Shown here in pieces: positions 1 through 20,715 of a DNA stretch of 22,865 bases (position 1 is its first letter; the number at the start of each line of letters is the position of its first letter). Under the pieces are notes generated by a model. That model saw nothing but the letters and a program-made list of their open reading frames with translations. It was not told the origin of the DNA and made no database searches. A program made the translations under genes and the position numbers. The stretch lies in the IMG/VR virus record IMGVR_UViG_3300027747_001258, positions 1-22,865 of that record; one strand, written 5' to 3'. This DNA comes from a virus.

Positions 1-1424
1 GTGATTGGACCTCCGACTGCCCACGCGTTACACGTGCGTGTCGCGGCGCACTTAAAATCTAGTGCTTCGCAGTAGCCAAGATCTGCTTGCTTGATAGCTG
101 CATCAGCATCTACTTGACTTGAGTCTCCTTGTTCTAGTCCTTGTGCGATGCAGTCGAGCATCTTAGGTGTTTGAACAAAAAAGACACAGTTACCGCAGCG
201 ACTAGTCTTTGCCTCTTCAGGAGTTGTTTTCCACTTGTCTGCTTTTTCCTGCCAAAATTCTTCGTTAGGCTCGTTTGGATTCAACGGGCCATAGCCCACG
301 TTGTCAATTGCGTTTTGACGATTCTTTAAGTTAACTTGAATATCCTGAGTCGCGACAGGGCATGCATCACCTTCACCTGCAGCAACGATAACTTCTCCGT
401 CACCGTTATCTGCTCCGTCAACGTTAACTACACCGTCAGGGATAACAGCAAAGCGGCACTTGCCGTCGTCTTCAATAGTAGGTGCGATAATCTTGCAAAC
501 GCCAGGACCGTCATACAGGACACAGTTGACGCACTTAACACCGATCTCCTTGTACTCGTTTTCAGCCGCAGGAGTGTACCCTGCCCAGATGCCTGTCTCG
601 TCTTCGTTAAACTTTCCGTACTTGTCCGCGATCTCTAGTAGAGCTGCTGCAAGATCCTGCTCTTCGGCAACGATAACTCCTGCTGCTTGAAGAGCTTCAA
701 CCCGCTGCTCTTGAAAAGAGAAATACATATCCTGCGAGGTATACTGTCCGTACTCGTCTGCAGACAGACATTGATTACACACACAACCGGAGTCACATAG
801 ACATGTTCCTCCGTCACATCCTGGACATACACAGCCAGCTGGTCCACAAAGTGGGCAGCCGTCTGCGTCGTCCATAAGCTGCTCAACAACAGGAGTGTCT
901 CCTGCGTCTAAAAGTTCAGCAGCTTCAGATTTTCCCGGCATACCGGAATCTGTAGGTGTTAAATATGCGCCAATCTGCCAACGCCACTTCTTGTGCATGT
1001 CATCACGGTCTGCGAGGAAGTTGATAACTCCCTGCTCGTTGTATTTAGCAGCAAGATCAAGGGCTTGTCCGATAACTGCAATCATTACATCGTTAGCTGC
1101 GTAGAGATCTGCTAGCATGGAGAATGGGTCGTCTGTAACGTCCATATCCTGTGTCTGGTTAAGATCAATAAAGTCTTGAAGCTTGTAAGGAGCATCATGA
1201 CCCATCTTTAGCATAAGCTCTGCCGTAGGATCGATAGACTCGTAGAGATCCTCGTAGATCTCTTGGAAAAACTCGTGAAACTCTGCAAAGTCGCGTCCCT
1301 TTACGTTCCAGTGATGGCCGTGCGTCTTAAAGTACATAGTTACTACGCTGCCTAGAACTACAGCAATCGAGCTGCTAAGCTCCGATCTGTCGGTATTAGT
1401 GTCTATGTTTTGATTTTCGTACAT
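1..1424 (-). CDS. Dps/ferritin-like domain fused to cysteine-rich tail (C-terminus beyond window)
   Basis: Start ATG at 1424 follows an AAGGAG ribosome site and lies two bases after the portal stop. The frame stays open for 474 codons to the window edge, so the C-terminus is missing. Residues 15-155 read as a Dps mini-ferritin: HHWNVKG, then a second His 12 residues later, then an IDPTAE helix. H38, H50, D65 and E69 have exactly the spacing of the Dps ferroxidase ligands (His-12-His-15-Asp-4-Glu). Residues 190-219 hold ten cysteines. Two later modules each start with CxNC (C298/C301 and C410/C413) and carry further cysteines at 310, 323, 355, 425, 452, 459 and 465; they look like a duplicated metal or Fe-S binding unit. 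Known: Dps proteins oxidise and store iron and can bind DNA. Inferred: a virion-associated or morphogenesis protein, from its place directly after the portal. Family call fairly sure; role unknown. Confidence 0.8.
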   Translation of the reverse strand, partial: MYENQNIDTNTDRSELSSSIAVVLGSVVTMYFKTHGHHWNVKGRDFAEFHEFFQEIYEDLYESIDPTAELMLKMGHDAPYKLQDFIDLNQTQDMDVTDDPFSMLADLYAANDVMIAVIGQALDLAAKYNEQGVINFLADRDDMHKKWRWQIGAYLTPTDSGMPGKSEAAELLDAGDTPVVEQLMDDADGCPLCGPAGCVCPGCDGGTCLCDSGCVCNQCLSADEYGQYTSQDMYFSFQEQRVEALQAAGVIVAEEQDLAAALLEIADKYGKFNEDETGIWAGYTPAAENEYKEIGVKCVNCVLYDGPGVCKIIAPTIEDDGKCRFAVIPDGVVNVDGADNGDGEVIVAAGEGDACPVATQDIQVNLKNRQNAIDNVGYGPLNPNEPNEEFWQEKADKWKTTPEEAKTSRCGNCVFFVQTPKMLDCIAQGLEQGDSSQVDADAAIKQADLGYCEALDFKCAATRTCNAWAVGGPI

Positions 1425-1426
1425 TG

Positions 1427-3151
1427 CTACGCTCCTTCTTGTAGAGCCGGTGGTAGTGGTGGTTCAGGTGTTGCAGTTGGAGCAGGGGCAACGGGTGTTG
1501 CTTTGTCCAAAATCTGTTGAATCTCTGGAGGTACTGGCGCGGCAGACTCTGCCTGTTGCGCTTCACGCACAGACTTCATAATCTCTGGAGCGATAGCTCC
1601 AATCATGGCCTGGGTAAGCTCTTGTGAAAGAACGCCCTTCTCTACAAGAAGACGAATTGCAAGTTCATTCGCGTCCGGCGCATCGGTAGCTGCAAATCCG
1701 TGAGCGCGACGCCATGCGTCATAGGAGACTGCCATCTTGTCAAAGCCCATGTCAGCATCTGCCGCGCGGTCGTTACGTGTTGAAACTGCGCTTGGGTCAT
1801 ACCAGATGCATACACGGGCTACGTCCTCCTCTACGAAGCCTGCAGCAAGGAGCGCAGGTCGTAGGTAGGCAACTGTAAGAGAATCCGCGATAAGAAGCAT
1901 GAGAGGCTCGATATGCGCCTTGTACAAGTTATCATCGATAGTCTGGGCGTTAGTGTACTTAACGTTTGCTAAACCGGTAATAATATCCTTAGGCACATCA
2001 AGCCCTTGAAGGATACGGTCAAGTACCTTATCGGAGCGATCTGCAAGTGCAGGGTCAAACGAGCGCTCAAACTTAAACTGCTTAATTTTGTCGCCAAGCT
2101 CTGCAGGTCCGCGAATAATAAGTGGAACAACCGCTGAAGCCGAGTCCTCGTCACGAATCGGAGTCGTCATCGCATCCATGAGTTGATCTTCAAACTCGTC
2201 GGCTGCTTCCTCCGCGGTCATGCCAGGATTGAGATCATTCTCGTCATCATACGGATAGTCAGGATCTGGAGACGCGGCAACAGAGAGACCGTCTGGGAGA
2301 TAGAGAGCGCCAGCGTTTAGACGTGAGCGAGCTGTCGCGCGGAACGTACGGTTGAGCAAAAGTAGCTCTGAGCAAAGATCAAGTAGACCGCGTAATGATG
2401 AATCAGCCTCGTCTGAGTAGCGTGGGTGAGCTCTCCAGATACGAGCAACAAACGCTGTGTTAGGAAGTTTAACTCCGTTTGCGCCGGAGCGTGAAGACTG
2501 CGTTCCAATAATGTCGCGGCGTGGAATAACAACGTATGAATTCTTAGAGTCTAGCTGCAACTCGTCTGTTGAGCGAATATCCCAGGACTCCTTAAGTCCT
2601 GAGCCCTTACGCTCGGGGAATTGAACAAGATAGCACTCGCCACTGACTAATAAGTTAAGAGCTGCATCCTTCAAAAGACCAGCTTGTCCGCCATACGCGG
2701 AGCTTAGACGCGCGAGGGCACGTTCAGCTGCGGCCGCGAGACGTGTATCAACTACCTCGCTGATGTTTACAGAGACAGGGTTCTCTCCGGCGTTATCAAT
2801 AGCTCCTGCGTATAAACGGATACGAGATACTACAGATGAAACAAGATTAAAGGCGTACTTGATCTCTCCGATTGCGTCGTAGTATTCCCATGCCTCGGAC
2901 TGCCAGTCGCTGGATCCTCCGGAGCGGCGTTGCTTAAACTTCTCAACTTCGCCCTTGTCGTTAATCTGTAACTGAACTGCGGCGGCTGTAAGAGAGCGAG
3001 GAGCAGAGTAAGGAAGTGCCTGGGCATAGGTCTTGCCGTCAAAAACTACTGTCGCAGGCAGAGTGTTACGAGGCGCCTGTGCGGTGATACGACGAGTACG
3101 GGCAGGGTTGCCTTTAGGCTTCTTACTATTATCCTTAGAGAATAGTCCCAC
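1427..3151 (-). CDS. Portal protein
   Basis: A 574-residue protein of the size expected for a phage portal, the dodecameric ring at the capsid vertex through which DNA is packaged and to which the tail attaches. The N-terminus is basic and Pro/Arg rich. From about residue 85 comes a helical segment (AWEYYDAIGEIKYAFNLVSS), then a central region with repeated Arg/Asp-rich helices and RDDIIG/RIWRAHPRYS-type segments. A helix with DVPKDIITGLANVKYTNAQ at about 390-410 resembles the portal crown/stem part of SPP1-like and actinophage portals. The C-terminus is a Pro/Ala-rich tail. The stop is two bases from the Dps-fusion start, so the two are probably one transcript. The call rests on overall composition, length, this motif and its place on the structural side, not on a catalytic signature. 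Confidence 0.75.
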   Translation of the reverse strand: MGLFSKDNSKKPKGNPARTRRITAQAPRNTLPATVVFDGKTYAQALPYSAPRSLTAAAVQLQINDKGEVEKFKQRRSGGSSDWQSEAWEYYDAIGEIKYAFNLVSSVVSRIRLYAGAIDNAGENPVSVNISEVVDTRLAAAAERALARLSSAYGGQAGLLKDAALNLLVSGECYLVQFPERKGSGLKESWDIRSTDELQLDSKNSYVVIPRRDIIGTQSSRSGANGVKLPNTAFVARIWRAHPRYSDEADSSLRGLLDLCSELLLLNRTFRATARSRLNAGALYLPDGLSVAASPDPDYPYDDENDLNPGMTAEEAADEFEDQLMDAMTTPIRDEDSASAVVPLIIRGPAELGDKIKQFKFERSFDPALADRSDKVLDRILQGLDVPKDIITGLANVKYTNAQTIDDNLYKAHIEPLMLLIADSLTVAYLRPALLAAGFVEEDVARVCIWYDPSAVSTRNDRAADADMGFDKMAVSYDAWRRAHGFAATDAPDANELAIRLLVEKGVLSQELTQAMIGAIAPEIMKSVREAQQAESAAPVPPEIQQILDKATPVAPAPTATPEPPLPPALQEGA

Positions 3152-7512: not shown

Positions 7513-8907
7513 CTACCTAACGCGGAAGGTGTTTCTCAGACCAGGGATCTTTCGGCCAGCTGGAGACTTAGCCGTAATCTTTCCGCCTACGAATCCGGCT
7601 GGTGGTTTAATGAGTAGAGCGGTAAGGGCATGGACCAGCGCATCGACGCGGTCAGGTGATTTGCCTTCGCCTGGAATCCACGAGGTCATCTGGGACTCGA
7701 GGTCCGCTAGGTACCCTATGTGGTGCACGCGGTTCTGCTCGTAAGCTAGCGTGATTGGCTCGGCTCGAAGGGCCTTGCCGTATTTGGAGTGAACCTCAAG
7801 TACCTTAACCGTTGGGTCAATCGTGTTGATGGCGTTGCGAACAAGCGCACCGCCTTGGTTTACCTCCGCGATAACGGGGCAACCCCACTTACGCGCCATG
7901 GCTACTACCTTGTTTGCCCACACATCCGGTGAGCCTAAGATTGAAGCATCCTCAAGTACCCAGCTCTGACGTTTGTAAAGATCTCTATCGGCCGTTGCAG
8001 CTACAACAACTATGCCGCATTCATCTCTTGGATTTTCAGCTACCGATGGATCAACACCGATGCAACGAAGCGGTGCGCCTTGTGGCATAACAAGTTCGCG
8101 TGTATTATCGATAAGTTCTACTGTCCAGAGTGCTCCCTCAACGTCTGAAAGCATCTCGCCGTAAAGTTCCTGCGCAGCTAGACGAGTTCCTTCGTACACT
8201 CCAAGAATTCCTTCCATGTAGGCCGCAGAAAGGTTTCCGCTGTTGTCCATGGTTGAACCTTTAGTAATAATAACCTTGCCGGGATTTGTATCGGCCTCAC
8301 GTAAAAGATCATATAGCAACGGCACGCGCTTCGGCGTTGTTGTAATCATAATTTTAGGATTTTGACCAAGACGAGTACCAATACGTAAGTTTTCAAATGC
8401 GGTAAGCCCAGCTCCATCTGGAGTCTGACGCCAAGCGGCAACCTCGTCTCCCCAAGCATGCGTGAATTGAGGACCACGAAGAGAATCTGGCTCATCGGCA
8501 GTAAAGCATGTTGCCGTATTGCCGTTAGGCCAAGTCAGTCTTCGCTTTGACGGTTCGTACAACGGACGCTCACTAGGAGGCGTTACATTGATAATACCTG
8601 ATTCACCTTCAACGATAACGTCTCGTACGTCAGCAGCTGTACGAGCTACCAATGCAAAACGGCGTTGACCGGTGTTTGTGTATTTAGCTTCTTCTCTTAC
8701 CCACTCTGAAGCCGTACGAGTTTTACCAGCACCGCGTCCTGCGAGGTACATCCATATGTTCCAGTCATCACCTTGAGGACGCTGTTGTTCAGGACGTCCC
8801 CAGAAACTCCAGTCCCATTGAAGAGCGTCTGGATCTAGACCTGCTAGAACCTCTGCCTTTTCTTCATCAGACATTGCCGCAATGATTTGTGCTAGACTCT
8901 TTCCCAT
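7513..8907 (-). CDS. Terminase large subunit (packaging ATPase/nuclease)
   Basis: 464 residues. The ATPase domain has Walker A AGRGAGKT at 56-63, Walker B THAWGDE at 149-155 (D154/E155), and a coupling motif MITTTPK at 187-193. The nuclease domain shows an RNase H-like acidic set: IGVDPS (D286), AEVNQGG (E348), and SPDRVDALVHA (D419/D422). Known role: it docks on the portal, cuts concatemers and pumps DNA into the procapsid. It resembles the shorter TerL group of phages with combined domains. No Shine-Dalgarno precedes the ATG at 8907; instead a TTATAAGG box lies ~14 bases upstream, so the message may have a very short leader. It is separated from the portal by the lysis cassette, which is unusual as these genes are normally adjacent. 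Confidence 0.92.
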   Translation of the reverse strand: MGKSLAQIIAAMSDEEKAEVLAGLDPDALQWDWSFWGRPEQQRPQGDDWNIWMYLAGRGAGKTRTASEWVREEAKYTNTGQRRFALVARTAADVRDVIVEGESGIINVTPPSERPLYEPSKRRLTWPNGNTATCFTADEPDSLRGPQFTHAWGDEVAAWRQTPDGAGLTAFENLRIGTRLGQNPKIMITTTPKRVPLLYDLLREADTNPGKVIITKGSTMDNSGNLSAAYMEGILGVYEGTRLAAQELYGEMLSDVEGALWTVELIDNTRELVMPQGAPLRCIGVDPSVAENPRDECGIVVVAATADRDLYKRQSWVLEDASILGSPDVWANKVVAMARKWGCPVIAEVNQGGALVRNAINTIDPTVKVLEVHSKYGKALRAEPITLAYEQNRVHHIGYLADLESQMTSWIPGEGKSPDRVDALVHALTALLIKPPAGFVGGKITAKSPAGRKIPGLRNTFRVR

Positions 8908-8937: not shown

Positions 8938-9861
8938 TTATACGGGTACGTTGCTAATATCTGAATATATTTCTGATACTACAGTTGCCCACACCTTTGG
9001 TGTGTGGTCGAAAGGTTGATAACCACCGGCTCCTCCAATAAGTACTCTGCCTCTTGCATGCTTGTTAGCGATGTCCGCAATGATGCGAGCAGCAGCTCGA
9101 TACCCAGGATAATCAAAGTTAAGACCAGACAATGGATCTGAATGATGTGCGTCAGCTCCGGTAGCTAGAAGAATAACATCTGGCTGAATATCATCCGCAA
9201 GCAGCTCGATCTCTTGCATCGCATCCAGAAATTCTACGTCACCATCTCCGTTAGCTAATGCCCAGTTGTATACTCCATTTTCTGGCTCGTTCTTAAGACC
9301 AGTTCCCGGGAAGATTCCACCTTGGTGGATACTTGCCGTAACTAGATTTCGATACGGGCGCAGGATATTCTCAACGCCGTCACCATGATGCGCATCCCAA
9401 TCAATGTACATAGGCTTAAGCCCTGCAGCCATAAATAACTTAGCAACTAACGCCATGTCGTTGAATACACAAAAACCAGAGCTATGGTCATACTGCGCAT
9501 GATGCTTAGCTCCTTGCGGATTGAAGGCTACCTGAGCTTCTCCTGAAAGAATCTTTTCATACATGCGAATAGTCCCCGCAGCCATCTCAAGAGCAACGGC
9601 TCCAAGATGTAGCTGGTCAGGATACCATTCACCGCAGTGACCTTTATCTAAAACCTTAGAAATGTATTCATCAGAGTGAACATGATTTAACAAGTCTCTG
9701 TCTGATTCAGACGCTGATGGCTTAACCATTACTGGTTCTAAGTCTTTAAGAAGCTCTACCGCAAGCTTAGCACGAATTGGATTAGTTGGGTGACTACCGT
9801 CACCATTTCCTAGCTGCCAATCAAGATAGATATCGTCGTATGCGACGTGTAGCTTACTCAC
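8938..9861 (-). CDS. Histone deacetylase-fold hydrolase (HDAC/AcuC-like)
   Basis: 307 residues if it starts at the GTG at 9861. This start overlaps the phosphatase stop and has GGA eight bases upstream; a longer frame to 9984 would run inside the phosphatase. Signature residues are intact: HPTNPIR near the N-terminus, GAKHHAQYDHSSGFCVFND with His120/His121, IDWDAHHGDG with zinc ligands D156 and H158, TGADAHHSDPLSGLN with D237, and IGGAGGYQPF with catalytic Tyr281. Known family: zinc deacylases removing acyl groups from lysines or polyamines, including bacterial AcuC. So it should be an active cytoplasmic deacetylase; the substrate is unknown. In a phage it may reset host protein acetylation, or act on acetylated small molecules. 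Cotranscribed with the phosphatase under a repeat-family promoter. Confidence 0.88.
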   Translation of the reverse strand: MSKLHVAYDDIYLDWQLGNGDGSHPTNPIRAKLAVELLKDLEPVMVKPSASESDRDLLNHVHSDEYISKVLDKGHCGEWYPDQLHLGAVALEMAAGTIRMYEKILSGEAQVAFNPQGAKHHAQYDHSSGFCVFNDMALVAKLFMAAGLKPMYIDWDAHHGDGVENILRPYRNLVTASIHQGGIFPGTGLKNEPENGVYNWALANGDGDVEFLDAMQEIELLADDIQPDVILLATGADAHHSDPLSGLNFDYPGYRAAARIIADIANKHARGRVLIGGAGGYQPFDHTPKVWATVVSEIYSDISNVPV

Positions 9862-10375
9862 TTGCTTTGTCCAACGTTCGAACATACGCTTCAAACTCAC
9901 CGTTACATAAAACATATGAGGTTCGCTTAGTACGAAGAAGCGTGATAGCTTCATCAGGAGTATAACCAGCTTTGATAAGAACAAGAGCCGCAGTTAAACC
10001 AGAGCGGTTAAGCCCAGCTTGACAACGAATTAAAACCTTCTTACCAGCCTTCCACTTGCTATGCGCAAATGAGACAGCTGTAGCTAGAGACTCTGAGTCA
10101 ATATGGTCTACGTCTGAATCATAAAAACCAAAGCGTAGTTCCTCAACCATCCAGTCAACTGGATTTGCCCATGCGTATAAAGTTACTACCGCATCGAAAT
10201 CTTTCTTTGTGATTTGTTTAGGCGCGTCTAATACTGCTGACTCTTCAATTGTGTCCAGGTCATCAGTTCCGCCTACCCATAAACCAGGCAAGATCTCGCT
10301 GTGCAATGGAAAGTCCCAGCTGTCTAACTGATGTGCTGGTGCATATCCTTCGTTTGTTTCAATGAGCTTTGCCAT
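9854..10375 (-). CDS. Dual-specificity-type protein phosphatase
   Basis: 173 residues. Motifs: LPGLWVGG near residue 30, an acidic loop FYDSDVDHID (Asp88 or a neighbour could be the general acid), and the P-loop signature RCQAGLNRSG with nucleophile Cys118 and Arg124 (Cx5R), followed by an ALVLIKAGYTPDEAI helix. This is a cysteine-based phosphatase of the DSP/atypical class, acting on phospho-Ser/Thr/Tyr or on phosphate esters such as phosphoinositides or RNA caps; the substrate cannot be told. The start at 10375 has AAAAGGAG before it. The deacetylase start overlaps its stop by eight bases, so the two enzymes are probably made in a fixed ratio. A repeat-family promoter lies at 10409-10423. 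Confidence 0.85.
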   Translation of the reverse strand: MAKLIETNEGYAPAHQLDSWDFPLHSEILPGLWVGGTDDLDTIEESAVLDAPKQITKKDFDAVVTLYAWANPVDWMVEELRFGFYDSDVDHIDSESLATAVSFAHSKWKAGKKVLIRCQAGLNRSGLTAALVLIKAGYTPDEAITLLRTKRTSYVLCNGEFEAYVRTLDKASE

Positions 10376-10445: not shown

Positions 10446-11012
10446 TTACTCTTCTTGTATAAACGTGTGGATGTTGCCACCGGAGTAGATGTCATGCTTG
10501 ATAGCAATTTCTACTGCACGGTAAACAATCTTCTCAGCTTCCTTTGCGGTCTTACACTTTTGATAGTTAAGAGCTTCAAGAACACCGAGAGCTAGATCCG
10601 AACCACTACCTGAGTGATACACGTTTCGTTCTTCTCTGTCCCAAGAGTAGTCTTCGTAAATCGGATACAGAACTCCGTACACTGAGACAATGAACTCTGA
10701 GTCGTGAGCCGCAGCTTCACCGTCAGCCTTCATGTCGTAGCCAGACTCGACGAAAACCTTACGCATAGACGGAATAAATGTTTTCGTCATGAATACATCA
10801 AGGTCCTGTCCAGCTTTCGGACGAGGAGCTCTCCAACCAAATTGAAGTATGTTTGAGCCGCGTCCCGCACCAGACCCTGCAATTAAAATACCGTTATTCT
10901 CTACGACTTTATGCGTAGCCATTTCTAGGTAGCGACCACTTTCGTCAGACGAACGCGAATCACAACCAATGACGGACCAGCCGTCACCTTGAATTGCTAC
11001 AAGTGTAGTCAC
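10446..11012 (-). CDS. Proteasome beta/HslV-like Ntn hydrolase
   Basis: 188 residues from a GTG at 11012, with GGAGAGGA eight bases upstream. After removal of the initiator Met the protein starts TTLVAIQGDG, with the nucleophile Thr1 expected of proteasome beta subunits and HslV. GCDSR places an Asp at position 17 of the mature chain. THKVVENNG supplies Lys34, one off the usual Lys33, and IAGSGAGRG supplies the Gly turn. GSGSDLALGVLEAL matches the helix with the conserved Ser/Asp. So the active site appears intact with no propeptide. Known relatives form rings that degrade proteins fed by an ATPase. Here no cognate unfoldase gene is adjacent; it might use a host ATPase or act alone. Actinobacteria often carry a proteasome, so competition with the host particle is possible. 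Confidence 0.8.
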   Translation of the reverse strand: MTTLVAIQGDGWSVIGCDSRSSDESGRYLEMATHKVVENNGILIAGSGAGRGSNILQFGWRAPRPKAGQDLDVFMTKTFIPSMRKVFVESGYDMKADGEAAAHDSEFIVSVYGVLYPIYEDYSWDREERNVYHSGSGSDLALGVLEALNYQKCKTAKEAEKIVYRAVEIAIKHDIYSGGNIHTFIQEE

Positions 11013-16806: not shown

Positions 16807-16821
16807 AGTACTATTATATCA
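16807..16821 (-). promoter_or_regulatory. Repeat-family promoter, AGTACTA class
   Basis: Minus strand TGATATAATAGTACTAC for the 16718-16369 pair. Its TGA is at the same time the stop codon of the subtilase gene. Confidence 0.8.
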
Positions 16822-17736
16822 GGTTTGGTAGAACTTTAGTTCGAAATTGGTAAGAGTTCGGTAGGCGTTTTGTAGGGACGCGTTGACCTTGCCCATGACC
16901 GTATCTAGGGTAGAACAATCAGATAGGCTTTGAGCCAGTCTGGTGGCCACAAGTACGGTAGCATTCGAGGTACCTAGGGTAACTGTCGTGTTTCCCTGGA
17001 CGTCGGTTGTGGCGGCCCTTCCAAGGGCATACAGGTCAAGGTCTGGCCCGGAGTTAGAGATCAACATGATTGGGTAGACCCAACCGGTGACTTCCTTCAT
17101 GGAGTACGGGGTATCCGTTGCTCCTACGGCGATTGCCTGAGGGATACATGCCGGATAGTTAACTTTCTTTTGGTCAGAGTTGTTGCCTGAAGAAATAACC
17201 GTTGGGATATTCTTTGCAGCAAGCTGAACGATAAGTGGTTGAAGCTTTGGATCCGACGATACAGGACACGCTGCTTCCTTGTAGACACGACCGATTGATA
17301 CGGATACCGCGCCGACATTGAGTCTGTCAGCGTTTGCCGCAACCCAATCAAGTGCAAGTGTGACAGCTTTAGTTGTATAAGTAGTTGCGTATCCTTTAGC
17401 GCTCATGCCGACGATGCGGATGAACACGATCTTTACATTTGGATTAGCAGCTACCGCAACCGAAGCCATCTGCGTTCCGTGGCTCATGGCCTTGTCGACT
17501 ACGAGCTTTGGGTCTAAAGATGCAGCTCCGGGACCGACCATACTTGGTAGCATGTTTGGGCAGTTGCCGAACTCGATGAAGCAAGCTTCCTCAACTACCG
17601 CGGCCTTAGCCCAAGGTAGTTGCGTGTTGATACCGGAGTCGATGATGACAAGAGTTTTGTCTCCTGCCGCATGCGCCGGTGTTATTAGCAATGACAGACC
17701 TAAGGCTGCCGCAATCAGTAGTACTTTTGTTTTCAT
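16819..17736 (-). CDS. Secreted subtilisin-like serine protease
   Basis: 305 residues. Residues 1-24 are a classic Sec signal peptide (KTKVLLIAAALGLSLLITPA then HAAGD). The S8 catalytic triad is complete: Asp33 in VIIDSGIN, His86 in SHGTQMA, Ser257 in LGTSNATV, with oxyanion Asn185 in SSGNNS. There is no clear propeptide of usual length between signal and domain. Six or so Cys may form disulphides after export. Known relatives are secreted peptidases; in phages they are rare. Possible roles are degrading surface or competitor proteins, processing at the cell wall, or aiding release, none proven. Starts 93 bases after the vWA gene stop, without a repeat promoter, so probably in that transcript. 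The leader AAGACGAAAAGAG is a degenerate copy of the family. Confidence 0.85.
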   Translation of the reverse strand: MKTKVLLIAAALGLSLLITPAHAAGDKTLVIIDSGINTQLPWAKAAVVEEACFIEFGNCPNMLPSMVGPGAASLDPKLVVDKAMSHGTQMASVAVAANPNVKIVFIRIVGMSAKGYATTYTTKAVTLALDWVAANADRLNVGAVSVSIGRVYKEAACPVSSDPKLQPLIVQLAAKNIPTVISSGNNSDQKKVNYPACIPQAIAVGATDTPYSMKEVTGWVYPIMLISNSGPDLDLYALGRAATTDVQGNTTVTLGTSNATVLVATRLAQSLSDCSTLDTVMGKVNASLQNAYRTLTNFELKFYQT

Positions 17737-17829: not shown

Positions 17830-19626
17830 TTACGCAGCATTACGTGCGCCAATCTTTGTTAGAGCGTCTGCCGCAGCTTTTCCGATTTGGAGTGCAGCGT
17901 CTGCTGGGTCTTTCACATCTTGTAATAGGGCAACTGATGTTCCCTTAACTATGCTACGGACATATTCTAGTTGATATTCTTGTGTGAAAGGAAGCCACAT
18001 GATTGCGACCCCTGACTTCTCACATTCGCGAACCCACTTCTTAGCATTCTCTATCTCATCTGGTGTATAGCAACCATCGCTAACAACCACGAGTAGACGA
18101 GCGCCAGTTCCATTGAGAAGATTTAGAGAACCATCGAGTGCCTTGAACGCCTTATCGAACTTTTCAGTTGCATCAGGAGCTGTATAGACATTTACCTCAG
18201 GAAGATGCTGCCCTGGCTTTAGAGTAGGGAATACACCTGAACCATAGTAGACCATTGCGCAACGTCCTTGAACGCGTCGCACTGCCTCGGACATTGCCCA
18301 GGCGGTAACTGCCATTGGCTGCATTGCGTCTGCCATTGAACCAGAGATGTCAACCATAACTCCAACGTTAAGTGTTGGGTCATCAGTATGCTTACGCACT
18401 GTACGCTTCCATGGCTCTGCATGCATCATTGAACCACGAGCTTTGTACGCAGCTTCTTGAACCATCGCACGAGAACGTAGACGCCCTGGAGGAAGAATCG
18501 AAGTTACTTCCTTTTCATCGCGCTCACGATACTTTGCACGCTCAAGCATGTTTGCGATTTTCACCGCAGCCGCACGCTCTGGACCAGATGGTGCACGAGT
18601 CTCCTTGATGCGTGAGTAGCTACCAGAGCTTCCTAGCTCAGCAGTAGACTTGTTGAAGACTTCATCTGAAATCTTTTCATGATCTCTTTGTTGTTTTGCG
18701 GCCTTGCCACGAAGATCAACAACGTCATTCCAGTCTTCCTTCTGCTCTTGTTCCTGGGCTTCGTCGCCAATTGCAATTGCAATATCTTCCGCTGCTTCTT
18801 CAAGGGCTTCAATAATCTCTGCGATGATACCTGCCATAGCAGCAGTGACAGGATTGTCTTCCTCTTCATCACTGTTCTCTTTAGAAACTTCAGAGATAAG
18901 CTTTTCCCATTCGCGGGCAAGTTCGTAAAGTGGCAGAGCGTTTGTGTGCCCTTCATACTTTTGGAATCGAAGCCAGATGTCACGAAGTTGTGAATAGCGA
19001 GTATCACCAAAGTACTCAGCGACAAGCTCTTGAACGTCTAGAGCATCTTCGTTATCTAGTGAACCTGCATCAACACGAGCACATACGAGAGCAGCTAACT
19101 GCGCCATAGCACGAGTAGTGGTGCTCTTCTCTAGATATTCACGAACGTCATCAAGGATGATGTCCATCGCGCACGCGCGAAGGAACACTCGGTTAGCTGG
19201 GAAGTTTTCTATACCGAAAGCTTCAATGCGAGTCTCCTCAAGAATAGTAAGTGCCTGAAGTTCATTCTTTGAAAGATCCTCGTGGGCTTTGAATAAATCG
19301 TAGCGAGAGTAACGAGCGTGTAGTGCCTCATGAAAGATCGCACCGGATGCTCGTGGATAATCGAATTGTGTTCCGCGCTCGCGGACGTCTCCTATATTCT
19401 CAGGAGTTACTGTTGGACCGAAGGCAACAGAGACGTTTACCTCGACCTCAGCCATTGGTGGGTTGAAGCAGGCTGGTGCAGATTGCCCAGCGCCTGGGCC
19501 AACGTAGGCAACGATGTCTGAGCGTCCTGCCCAGGTGTTGACTAGCTCGCCGAGTTGAGCTCCGACCTTTAGCCATTCCGGCGGAGTCTGTTCCGCGCGG
19601 GTTTTAGAAACCTTTATATGTGCCAT
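17830..19626 (-). CDS. vWA-domain protein with HExxH metallopeptidase-like N-terminus
   Basis: 598 residues. The N-terminal part has AIFHEALHARYSRYD with His99-Glu100-x-x-His103, followed by ILEETRIEAFGIEN where an acidic residue near 130-135 could be the third zinc ligand; this resembles the metallopeptidase-like domain found before vWA domains in MoxR-partner proteins. Residues 245-300 are extremely acidic and helical. The C-terminal vWA domain has a complete MIDAS: MVDISGSM (Asp426, Ser428, Ser430), a Thr in NGTGAR near 507, and VVSDGCY with Asp517. Known: such proteins pair with MoxR AAA ATPases to remodel or insert metal in partners (CobT is a relative). The AAA partner lies just upstream. 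Own repeat promoter, leader AATGACGGAAGGA. Confidence 0.82.
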   Translation of the reverse strand: MAHIKVSKTRAEQTPPEWLKVGAQLGELVNTWAGRSDIVAYVGPGAGQSAPACFNPPMAEVEVNVSVAFGPTVTPENIGDVRERGTQFDYPRASGAIFHEALHARYSRYDLFKAHEDLSKNELQALTILEETRIEAFGIENFPANRVFLRACAMDIILDDVREYLEKSTTTRAMAQLAALVCARVDAGSLDNEDALDVQELVAEYFGDTRYSQLRDIWLRFQKYEGHTNALPLYELAREWEKLISEVSKENSDEEEDNPVTAAMAGIIAEIIEALEEAAEDIAIAIGDEAQEQEQKEDWNDVVDLRGKAAKQQRDHEKISDEVFNKSTAELGSSGSYSRIKETRAPSGPERAAAVKIANMLERAKYRERDEKEVTSILPPGRLRSRAMVQEAAYKARGSMMHAEPWKRTVRKHTDDPTLNVGVMVDISGSMADAMQPMAVTAWAMSEAVRRVQGRCAMVYYGSGVFPTLKPGQHLPEVNVYTAPDATEKFDKAFKALDGSLNLLNGTGARLLVVVSDGCYTPDEIENAKKWVRECEKSGVAIMWLPFTQEYQLEYVRSIVKGTSVALLQDVKDPADAALQIGKAAADALTKIGARNAA

Positions 19627-19649
19627 GATTTTCCTTCCGTCATTTTGTT

Positions 19650-19664
19650 AGTACTATTATATCA
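19650..19664 (-). promoter_or_regulatory. Repeat-family promoter, AGTACTA class
   Basis: Minus strand TGATATAATAGTACTAA for the vWA gene. Directly follows the terminator of the AAA gene: its TTTACC tail runs into the -10 element. Confidence 0.8.
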
Positions 19665-19702
19665 GGTAAAGAAGGTCCCAGGCACCCATACCCAGGACCT
19701 TC
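19665..19702 (-). terminator. Terminator of the AAA ATPase gene
   Basis: GAAGGTCC (19671-19678) pairs perfectly with GGACCTTC (19695-19702); TTTACC follows on the minus strand. Short T-run, but well placed 21 bases after the stop. Confidence 0.65.
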
Positions 19703-19722
19703 CTTTACTGCGCCAAGGGGAA

Positions 19723-20715
19723 TTAAATCTTGGCTGGTCGGCACTCTTCGCCGTACACCCTAGTGAGCACGTCCGCAACGACGGGGCGGTCGAGCTCAGG
19801 CGCACAGGCAATCAGGTTCGCGATAGCGAACTTAGTGCCGAACGATTTTGAGATGTCGCGGAATGCGAGCAACTCACGCATTTGTGGACACCAACCACAT
19901 TCACCAGATGCCTGGCGACGATTGATGTTTTGTGCAACTGTAACGATCTGTGCAGAGGCGCCAAGCTTTTTAGCAAGACCCCAGTCTGTAGTCATCTCAG
20001 ATTGCACAACGAATCGAGATAGAAGAGCTTCGGATAAGCGAACTCCAGGAGCGTTTGGGTTAGTAGCAGCGATGACATAGAACCCATCTTTTGCTTTTAC
20101 AGTTCCACGCTCTGGGTTTGCAGTAATTGTTAGTTCCTTACGTCCATCCATAAGTCCGTAGACTCCTGAAAGAACCTTAGGATCAATCAAGCCAACTTCG
20201 TCGATGAGCAATGGCACACCTTCTTCGGCAGCTTTTACAAGCGGACCGTCTTCCCACATGAATCCACCGGTTGGAGTTTGTACGTATCCACCAATGAAGT
20301 CAGCGAGTTCAGTGTCACCTGTACCCATGATTGTGTATAGCTTTTCATAGGCAGCTTCAACGAGTGCGGTTTTGCCGCAACCTGGAGCTCCGTAGAGAAG
20401 AATAAACTGTTGATCCATACGCGCCTTGCGAAGAACCATGACGTCATCATGCTCTCCCCACTTACGTGCATGGTACTGCTCGCCATTTGGACGAGTGTAG
20501 ACTGAATCGCCTACGAGTGCATCTGCTGATACCACAGGGACTACCTTTGCTTTGGGTGTTGGTCGTGCGTTTACTTTACCCTGAGCGAGAACTAGTGAGT
20601 CGAGAGTTGCAGAAGACTCTGGGTGAGTTGTCTGCATAAGTGATGTAAGAAGTGTAGAGCCTAGGTTAGCTCCGGGTGCGAATGTTTCAATCGCGTCCAT
20701 AATTGCTGTAGACAT
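19723..20715 (-). CDS. MoxR/CobS-like AAA ATPase
   Basis: 330 residues. Walker A YGAPGCGKTAL at 108-118 (Lys115, Thr116), Walker B LLIDEVGL with Asp172/Glu173, sensor 1 AATNPN at 216-221 (Asn219/221), and LSEALLSRF with an Arg-finger-type Arg234. Insert LADFIGGYVQTPTGGFMWED before the Walker B is typical of the MoxR/AAA_5 group. Late Cys pair GECGWCPQM is unusual. Known role of the group: a ring ATPase that, with a vWA partner, activates or remodels target complexes. The vWA partner follows downstream after a terminator and separate promoter. The ATG at 20715 follows AACGACGAAAGGA; transcribed with 20748-21206. Confidence 0.88.
   Translation of the reverse strand: MSTAIMDAIETFAPGANLGSTLLTSLMQTTHPESSATLDSLVLAQGKVNARPTPKAKVVPVVSADALVGDSVYTRPNGEQYHARKWGEHDDVMVLRKARMDQQFILLYGAPGCGKTALVEAAYEKLYTIMGTGDTELADFIGGYVQTPTGGFMWEDGPLVKAAEEGVPLLIDEVGLIDPKVLSGVYGLMDGRKELTITANPERGTVKAKDGFYVIAATNPNAPGVRLSEALLSRFVVQSEMTTDWGLAKKLGASAQIVTVAQNINRRQASGECGWCPQMRELLAFRDISKSFGTKFAIANLIACAPELDRPVVADVLTRVYGEECRPAKI

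Follow-up and report, generated by a model that had tools for sequence, protein, structure and literature searches.

What does a Dps-type protein do when its gene starts directly behind the portal gene of a phage and continues into a long cysteine-rich tail? Ferritin genes of freshwater phages have been described as serving against oxidative stress (PMC6802176), and a similar interpretation was given for Dps of gut phages ('Gratiaviridae'; PMC8008677), as far as the accessible text of both papers goes. The locus described here raises the question for a Dps domain that is only one part of a large fusion protein. It belongs to a phage known from metagenomes and lies in the IMG/VR virus record IMGVR_UViG_3300027747_001258, of which all 22,865 bases were analysed and are referred to as the window. 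The fusion gene consists of six modules (A to F), the last two of which lie past the window end and were located in a complete copy of the gene:

3..1424, minus strand: whole Dps fusion gene, 474 of 684 codons inside the window
954..1424, minus strand: module A, Dps domain, residues 1-157 (PF00210, phrog_3636, PDB 3iq1, AF2, Foldseek)
768..857, minus strand: module B, Cys cluster, residues 190-219
423..695, minus strand: module C, residues 244-334, C-x2-C-x8-C-x12-C (C298, C301, C310, C323)
3..377, minus strand: module D, residues 350-475 (350-474 in the window), seven conserved Cys, crossing the window edge
past the window end, within L007:6001-8055: module E (DUF5824, PF19141), residues 499-599
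past the window end, within L007:6001-8055: module F, helical tail, residues 610-681

Extent and integrity of the fusion gene

The frame comprises 474 codons without a single internal stop, and its 3' end is open at the record edge. A complete copy, encoding 684 amino acids, was found on a contig of 129,506 bases (L007:6001-8055, record G001). This copy and the window ORF are 100% identical across 474 residues, and the window contains about 69% of the fusion protein. Moreover, the order A-B-C-D-E-F is uninterrupted in 17 distinct ORFs, 15 of which are complete. The initial annotation, which had treated the Dps part and the Cys-rich tail as one protein, was thus correct in this respect. In one exception (L043), the frame is divided over two ORFs, which may reflect an error or a fission.

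The pN/pS ratio was calculated for ten genes, in which synonymous sites are close to saturation for Dps and B; it amounts to 0.33 for the Dps domain (A), 0.25 for B and 0.12-0.17 for C, D, E and F, and to 0.82 and 0.49 in two linkers. As judged from these sequences, all six modules are under purifying selection, which is least strong on Dps, and selection is weaker in the two linkers. The weakest selection on Dps and the stronger selection on C to F fit an accessory payload on a conserved carrier. A sequencing or assembly artefact was also considered and rejected, given the 17 uninterrupted ORFs and the purifying selection on the modules.

A Dps domain with a complete ferroxidase site

Residues 1-157 match the Pfam family PF00210 (Ferritin) with an E-value of 9.3e-15 (55.2 bits, cut-off 24.5) and the PHROG family phrog_3636 with an E-value of 4.2e-22. 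The top PDB sequence match is 3iq1 from Vibrio cholerae (E 4.7e-14), and with the NCBIfam Dps equivalog models the domain scores under their cut-offs. In the AF2 model of the fusion protein, for which 43 sequences were used, helices are predicted at residues 11-40, 46-73, 82-88, 100-127 and 131-155, corresponding to a four-helix bundle whose second and third long helices are separated by a short one. The confidence per ten-residue block is 80-95 except for residues 1-10 (38) and 151-160 (62). All 50 PDB chains listed by Foldseek are of the Dps type, with target-normalised TM scores of 0.77-0.94. Both the Dps assignment of the N-terminus and the comparison with Dps structures that had been proposed as its check are therefore borne out, the latter for a predicted fold. 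Thus, by its sequence, the domain is a real Dps domain, and its fold is a confident prediction.

The residues H38, H50, D65 and E69, which we take to be the Dps ferroxidase ligands, are all found at the positions given in the initial annotation. No substitution of them was seen among 18 diverse relatives, all retrieved by patterns without these residues. The same holds for all 158 distinct relatives (of 159) that cover the four sites, a set that is partly pre-selected since two retrieval patterns included some ligand residues. From its family, the domain would be expected to form a dodecameric shell and to oxidise iron. It shares its predicted fold and the spacing and identity of the ligands with members of the Dps family such as 3iq1, P. 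aeruginosa 8ff9 and H. pylori NapA (1ji4). However, it forms the N-terminal quarter of a 684-residue phage head-operon protein and, itself free of Cys, precedes a region with 21 Cys and a basic module. Residues 1-157 are acidic (pI 4.4, net charge -16). E. coli Dps binds DNA by N-terminal lysines, and lysines of this kind are lacking in the phage domain, which counts against a function as a cargo of the phage head.

The cysteine-rich modules and the basic module

The ten Cys that had been noticed within 30 residues were counted in module B, which spans exactly this length. Nine of them are each shared by no fewer than 29 of 30 distinct relatives, and the fifth (C203) is present in 16 of 30. 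Each of the four Cys of module C and the seven of module D is absent from at most one of the relatives that cover it. C and D had been described as two similar CxNC modules. The common motif is indeed present (C298/C301 in C, C410/C413 in D), whereas a common fold is unproven, the profile comparison of C with D having yielded only a 10-residue match with a probability of 20%. Seven phage records contain relatives of module D under the annotation 'high potential iron-sulfur protein'. The HiPIP family (PF01355) scores 15.1 bits on the window-type protein, which is under the Pfam cut-off of 22, and it appears at E <= 1 in 29 of 53 module sequences with a best, sub-cut-off E-value of 0.0053. Most of residues 157-504 have low AF2 confidence, and the mean pLDDT of residues 238-476 (C and D) is 43. 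A HiPIP identity of C and D was therefore not accepted, given also that C and D are not recognisably homologous. From the Cys patterns, the modules are probably metal- or cluster-binding; Fe-S clusters or another metal are possible, and the Fe-S reading of C and D is weak.

The profile search of the tail, as proposed in the initial annotation, was productive for module E, which matches DUF5824 (PF19141, E 2.1e-6), and not for PF01355. Once iterated, the module E model extends its matches to the N-terminus of the large protein encoded next. Residues 477-604 are basic (pI 11.3, net charge +21), and residues 1-476 are acidic.

The fusion gene among the head genes

Upstream of the fusion gene, the following features of the packaging/head block were identified:

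1427..3151, minus strand: portal gene directly upstream of the fusion (phrog_776; Pfam Phage_portal below the cut-off)
1432..1437, minus strand: AAGGAG, probable ribosome-binding site of the fusion, 7 nt before the ATG and within the end of the portal gene
7513..8907, minus strand: terminase large subunit (PF03237, E 1.1e-21; PF17289, E 5.8e-7)

As had been stated, the fusion directly follows the portal gene: the latter matches phrog_776 with an E-value of 8.9e-109, and a gap of 2 bases separates the portal stop codon (1427-1429) from the start codon of the fusion (1422-1424). On L007, the gene order is portal, Dps fusion, giant protein, 197-residue protein, 1717-residue protein and major head protein, the last of which is assigned by phrog_777 (E 6.6e-81). 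The 1717-residue protein matches phrog_18402 (head maturation protease; E 1.8e-58) and also phrog_859, which PHROGs labels as portal protein; it has no Pfam match at E <= 0.01. Its counterpart in DSL-LC01 (OQ999401), a metagenome-assembled predicted actinophage from Dishui Lake (PMC10611076, accessible text), is annotated as capsid maturation protease and reaches 19.9 bits with PF04586 (cut-off 21). The giant protein encoded after the fusion (L007:8067-13421) comprises at least 1785 residues with a weak PI3/PI4-kinase match at its end (E 0.12), and DSL-LC01 has a 3289-residue gene at this position.

Several other genes of the window, all on the minus strand, deserve mention. Beside the terminase gene lies a gene for a 348-residue protein of the histone-deacetylase family (8938..9984; PF00850, E 3.9e-53), which has no PHROG match below E 0.2. 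It overlaps, according to mechanical ORF calls, a dual-specificity-phosphatase-like ORF (9854..10375; PF00782, E 1.4e-9), and a proteasome-subunit match above the cut-off lies at 10446..11012 (PF00227, E 5.3e-9). A subtilase (16819..17736; PF00082, E 1.5e-15) has an N-terminus that looks, by eye, like a signal peptide. In the region 17830..20715, a MoxR-like AAA ATPase (PF07728, E 3.7e-19) adjoins a protein with a sub-threshold CoxE-type VWA match (E 0.0026); from their sequences, a metal-insertion or chaperone pair is possible.

A Dps lineage built into phage head genes

Relatives of the Dps domain were collected from the best 80 or fewer loci of each scan, which is no census, and two of the Dps-alignment scans listed at least about 600 rows. 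ORFs were called mechanically, and the models for portal, S78 and capsid proteins were built from these loci and sample-checked by Pfam and PHROG. Among 161 distinct Dps ORFs, two, which are the halves of the divided L043 frame, were left out as too short, and the main set thus comprises 159 ORFs, namely 137 complete ones and 22 truncated at contig ends.

Within these best 80 or fewer loci per scan, 45 of the 137 complete ORFs carry an S78-like prohead protease domain. In a further 48, a window-type portal gene immediately precedes the Dps ORF, which is fused in 34 and stands alone in 14; the others either stand alone elsewhere (42/137) or are fused otherwise (2/137). Neither a window-type nor an HK97-type portal was detected just upstream of these last 44. 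When contig-cut ORFs are included, there are 51 S78 fusions among the best 80 or fewer loci per scan; an HK97-type portal lies within 600 nt upstream in 46 of them, four are cut off upstream, and no portal was found for one. A major capsid gene was detected within 1500 nt downstream in 44 of the 51 by a model built here, which overlooked one or more true cases, among them L138. The portal assignment was verified with PHROG for L104, L105, L117, L135 and L138, and that of the major head protein for L104, L117, L138 and L146; the gene upstream of the L146 fusion is tail-fibre-like according to PHROG. Ten fusions were tested with Pfam, which detected PF00210 in all ten and PF04586 in nine. In the tenth (L142), Dps occupies residues 409-565 between two stretches that match the DSL-LC01 capsid maturation protease, one at residues 217-617 of the latter with 67% identity and the other at residues 641-761 with 46% identity. 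Moreover, in L230, a single contig, the fusion partner of Dps is a minor head protein (phrog_16619, E 3e-28).

A control scan, for which Dps proteins of cells and of cultured phages served as queries, yielded 79 loci with 72 distinct Dps ORFs (70 complete, two cut), one of which also belongs to the main set. No fusion was found among the 70 complete ORFs, and none of the 72 lies beside either of the two modelled portal types. In a quick tree, 83 dereplicated rows of the main set, including stand-alone ones, separate from nine outgroup rows with an SH-aLRT value of 98, the cellular and cultured-phage outgroup rows being few, long-branched and not one group; with this reservation, the lineage also branches apart from the stand-alone Dps of cultured phages. 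Protease fusions occur at two places of the tree, but a single origin is all that its well-supported branches require. Contig ends truncate four rows labelled 'portalAlone' (L039, L053, L095 and L116), so that changes by fusion or fission are overcounted.

According to these sequences, one lineage of phage Dps has become part of head genes. Hence, the design that the initial annotation regarded as unfamiliar is real as a fusion within the structural block, but it is one of several arrangements of Dps with head proteins.

Some loci show further features. A HAD/acid-phosphatase-like domain (PF03767) is present in the Dps-S78 fusions L105 and L152 and, below the cut-off, in L135, and a TUDOR-like domain (PF11160) takes its place in L117 and L133; both domains are possible other head cargos. 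Just before the stand-alone Dps of L108, an ORF (L108:4166-4966) matches phrog_3017 (head maturation protease; E 1.7e-13), its best PHROG being labelled RNA ligase. By this match, L108 is a possible further head link among the 42 ORFs located elsewhere. In L118 and, by gene layout, in L122 and L134, a stand-alone phage Dps is encoded on the other strand than the genes around it, which in L118 are baseplate and helicase/helicase-loader genes.

Module shuffling and loss of the Dps core

The module order was surveyed in 78 loci (the best 80 or fewer of the first scan), L001 and two annotated phage regions. Single genes with module A have the orders A-B-C-D-E-F, A-C-D-E-F, A-B-C-E-F, A-B-E-F and A-E-F. 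In other surveyed loci, A or A-B is a gene of its own and the next gene consists of C-D-E-F or C-E-F. Orders without A were also observed (B-C-D-E-F, C-D-E-F, C-E-D, D-E-C-F and D alone).

The Dps core is absent in L022-L027 and L031-L034. Core-less proteins adjacent to the portal are encoded at L022:5875-7683, L023:5408-7225, L026:905-2725 and L031:5917-7341 and in relatives. Seven core-less N-termini consist of a stub resembling the first Dps helix, followed by B or C, and the portal is just upstream each time. For instance, residues 1-31 of the L023 protein align with residues 5-35 of the L008 Dps fusion (65% identity, E 1.5e-9) and residues 34-60 with residues 168-194 of the same fusion (E 4.2e-9). 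The first helix is matched at E <= 1e-5 in four of five stubs compared, L022 reaching only 0.015, and all these E-values refer to a comparison with three sequences. In the simplest reading of these alignments, the core-less relatives seem to have arisen by an internal in-frame deletion in which Dps was lost and the tail was kept. Moreover, when 16 phage records were searched whole for PF00210, 13 had one match each and three had none. The missing core in some relatives and these three records indicate that Dps is not essential.

A cargo of the phage head?

We consider it slightly better than an even chance (roughly 0.52) that the fusion protein is a cargo encoded in the head operon, in which Dps with an intact ferroxidase site is joined to the Cys-rich modules and the basic DUF5824 module and would protect packaged DNA. 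The fusion protein, whole or cut down by proteolysis to its Dps part, would enter the procapsid with the assembly machinery, and Dps would remain in the head beside the DNA. There it would oxidise Fe(II) using H2O2 or O2, which would prevent hydroxyl radicals from arising near the packaged genome. The basic module E could anchor the protein to DNA or to the inner face of the capsid, and the Cys modules could bind metal or pass electrons. The arrangement would function in the manner of an encapsulin, whose HK97-fold shell encloses a cargo of the ferritin family. In the window type, the protease has a separate gene and Dps would be an arm on a protein of Cys modules and a basic domain, which would be packaged as well.

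A role inside the head is favoured because the same Dps lineage has repeatedly been fused to prohead proteases. These proteases act inside the procapsid, as in HK97, and a Dps tied to one of them would therefore be carried inside. The assembled Dps shell measures about 9 nm; once freed, it could not exit through the capsid pores or the tail, and the lineage is thus read as head cargo. The size bears equally on the suggestion of the initial annotation that the protein is delivered with the genome, which is unlikely for the assembled dodecamer because the shell should not pass the portal channel. Its more general idea of a virion or DNA-protecting internal protein keeps the backing of the placement in the structural block, the ferroxidase site and the protease fusions, although the location is one that we infer. 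Apart from the acidic charge of the Dps domain, several findings count against a head cargo. Some relatives lack the Dps core, three of the 16 phage records searched whole have no PF00210 match, the Fe-S reading of modules C and D is weak, no packaging signal was recognised in the window-type fusion protein, and this protein is itself devoid of a protease domain, its 684 residues giving no Pfam match to PF04586 (S78 prohead protease).

Dps could also be a late enzyme of the infected cytosol that eases iron or peroxide stress, in which case the place in the head operon would reflect timing of expression and the fusions would be neutral. Earlier papers have, in their accessible text, read phage ferritin and Dps in this way (PMC8008677, PMC6802176). 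The phage-encoded Dps proteins of Privateer, LAh_8, Gilson, S-SRM01 and 'Gratiaviridae' (PMC8008677, accessible text) are relatives in kind, and the first four are encoded by stand-alone, single-domain genes with no head gene among the annotated neighbours shown. Those of Privateer, LAh_8 and Gilson lie among genes of nucleotide metabolism and replication (ribonucleotide reductase, deaminase, thioredoxin, thymidylate synthase) or among glycosyltransferase or tRNA genes, and that of S-SRM01 lies amid mostly hypothetical genes. Indeed, in the best 80 or fewer loci per scan, 42 of 137 complete relatives stand alone elsewhere, have no S78 domain and no modelled portal just upstream, which also speaks against a head cargo. 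However, 45 of the same 137 are fused to an S78-like prohead protease, which is expected to act in proheads, and the control set contained no fusion (0/70 complete). On balance, we regard an infection-stage enzyme as unlikely.

The post-portal position, the fusion to assembly proteins and the many module permutations would suit a structural or oligomerisation module as well, with the Dps dodecamer forming a core inside the head or nucleating a scaffold at the portal vertex, iron chemistry being secondary. Pure scaffolding needs no ferroxidase ligands, but these are invariant in the 18 relatives retrieved without them, and the absence of the core in some phages is contrary to an essential scaffold; this explanation is improbable. 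That virions carry iron in Dps and the Cys modules for the next host or for entry, a use akin to the 'Ferrojan horse' idea of the literature, is very improbable in spite of the union of an iron-oxidising domain with Cys-rich modules, since an assembled Dps shell of the above size should not pass the tail and nothing here points to virion iron or a tail location.

Returning to the head-cargo interpretation, its extension to the whole lineage is more tentative and has, in our view, somewhat less than an even chance: a large phage lineage may pack a working mini-ferritin into HK97-fold heads by fusing it to proteins that build or mature the head, thereby creating an iron/ROS nanocompartment, and the window type would add Cys redox or metal modules of its own.

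Relation to known systems

The nearest annotated relative is DSL-LC01, whose portal-to-capsid block contains modules C, D and E, as in the window type. There, however, C forms the C-terminal part of the protein annotated as capsid maturation protease, a gene of its own encodes D, and PF00210 has no match in the entire 129 kb. No relatives were found by scanning contigs of bacterial genomes, so an actinobacterial host is suggested only through DSL-LC01 (PMC10611076, accessible text). Three BFVD/UniProt entries from uncultured Caudovirales (A0A6J7WPK9, A0A6J7XDU5 and A0A6J5N5R9) are matched by the Dps model with E-values of 8.3e-10 or better. They are known here by their database names ('Prohead protease', 'Ferritin/DPS') and look like the same kind of fusion, whereas the window type has modules B-F and no protease domain.

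Encapsulins such as the IMEF systems and M. xanthus EncA combine an HK97-fold shell with ferritin-like cargo, as proposed here; among ferritin-like proteins, the cargo of the IMEF system comes nearest to Dps (PMC6668986, PMC9321382). However, encapsulins are cellular compartments that use a targeting peptide and enclose no genome, whereas the shell considered here would be a phage head, with packaging suggested by the fusions. Among the open-licence papers listed for phage Dps, virion or head proteins and encapsulins, most of them screened by title and beginning of the abstract, no description of a Dps/head-protein fusion was found. Two candidate reports were rejected: the available part of PMC7354516 concerns host dps, and that of PMC12796354 uses 'DPs' for capsid proteins and not for Dps.

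Implications for phage virions

The protein family is real, conserved and unusual; its virion location and metal chemistry are what we infer from sequence. Phage ferritins and Dps proteins have so far been read as helpers of the infected cell, and the fusions to head proteins point to the virion instead. The genome in a virion is exposed to damage by peroxide, light and iron, and there is no repair before the next infection. If the head-cargo interpretation is true, phage heads would be linked to ferritin-loaded encapsulins, the HK97 fold being common to both, and fusion to the maturation protease suggests a natural route of cargo loading. Thus, the question of whether virions carry antioxidant enzymes becomes directly testable.
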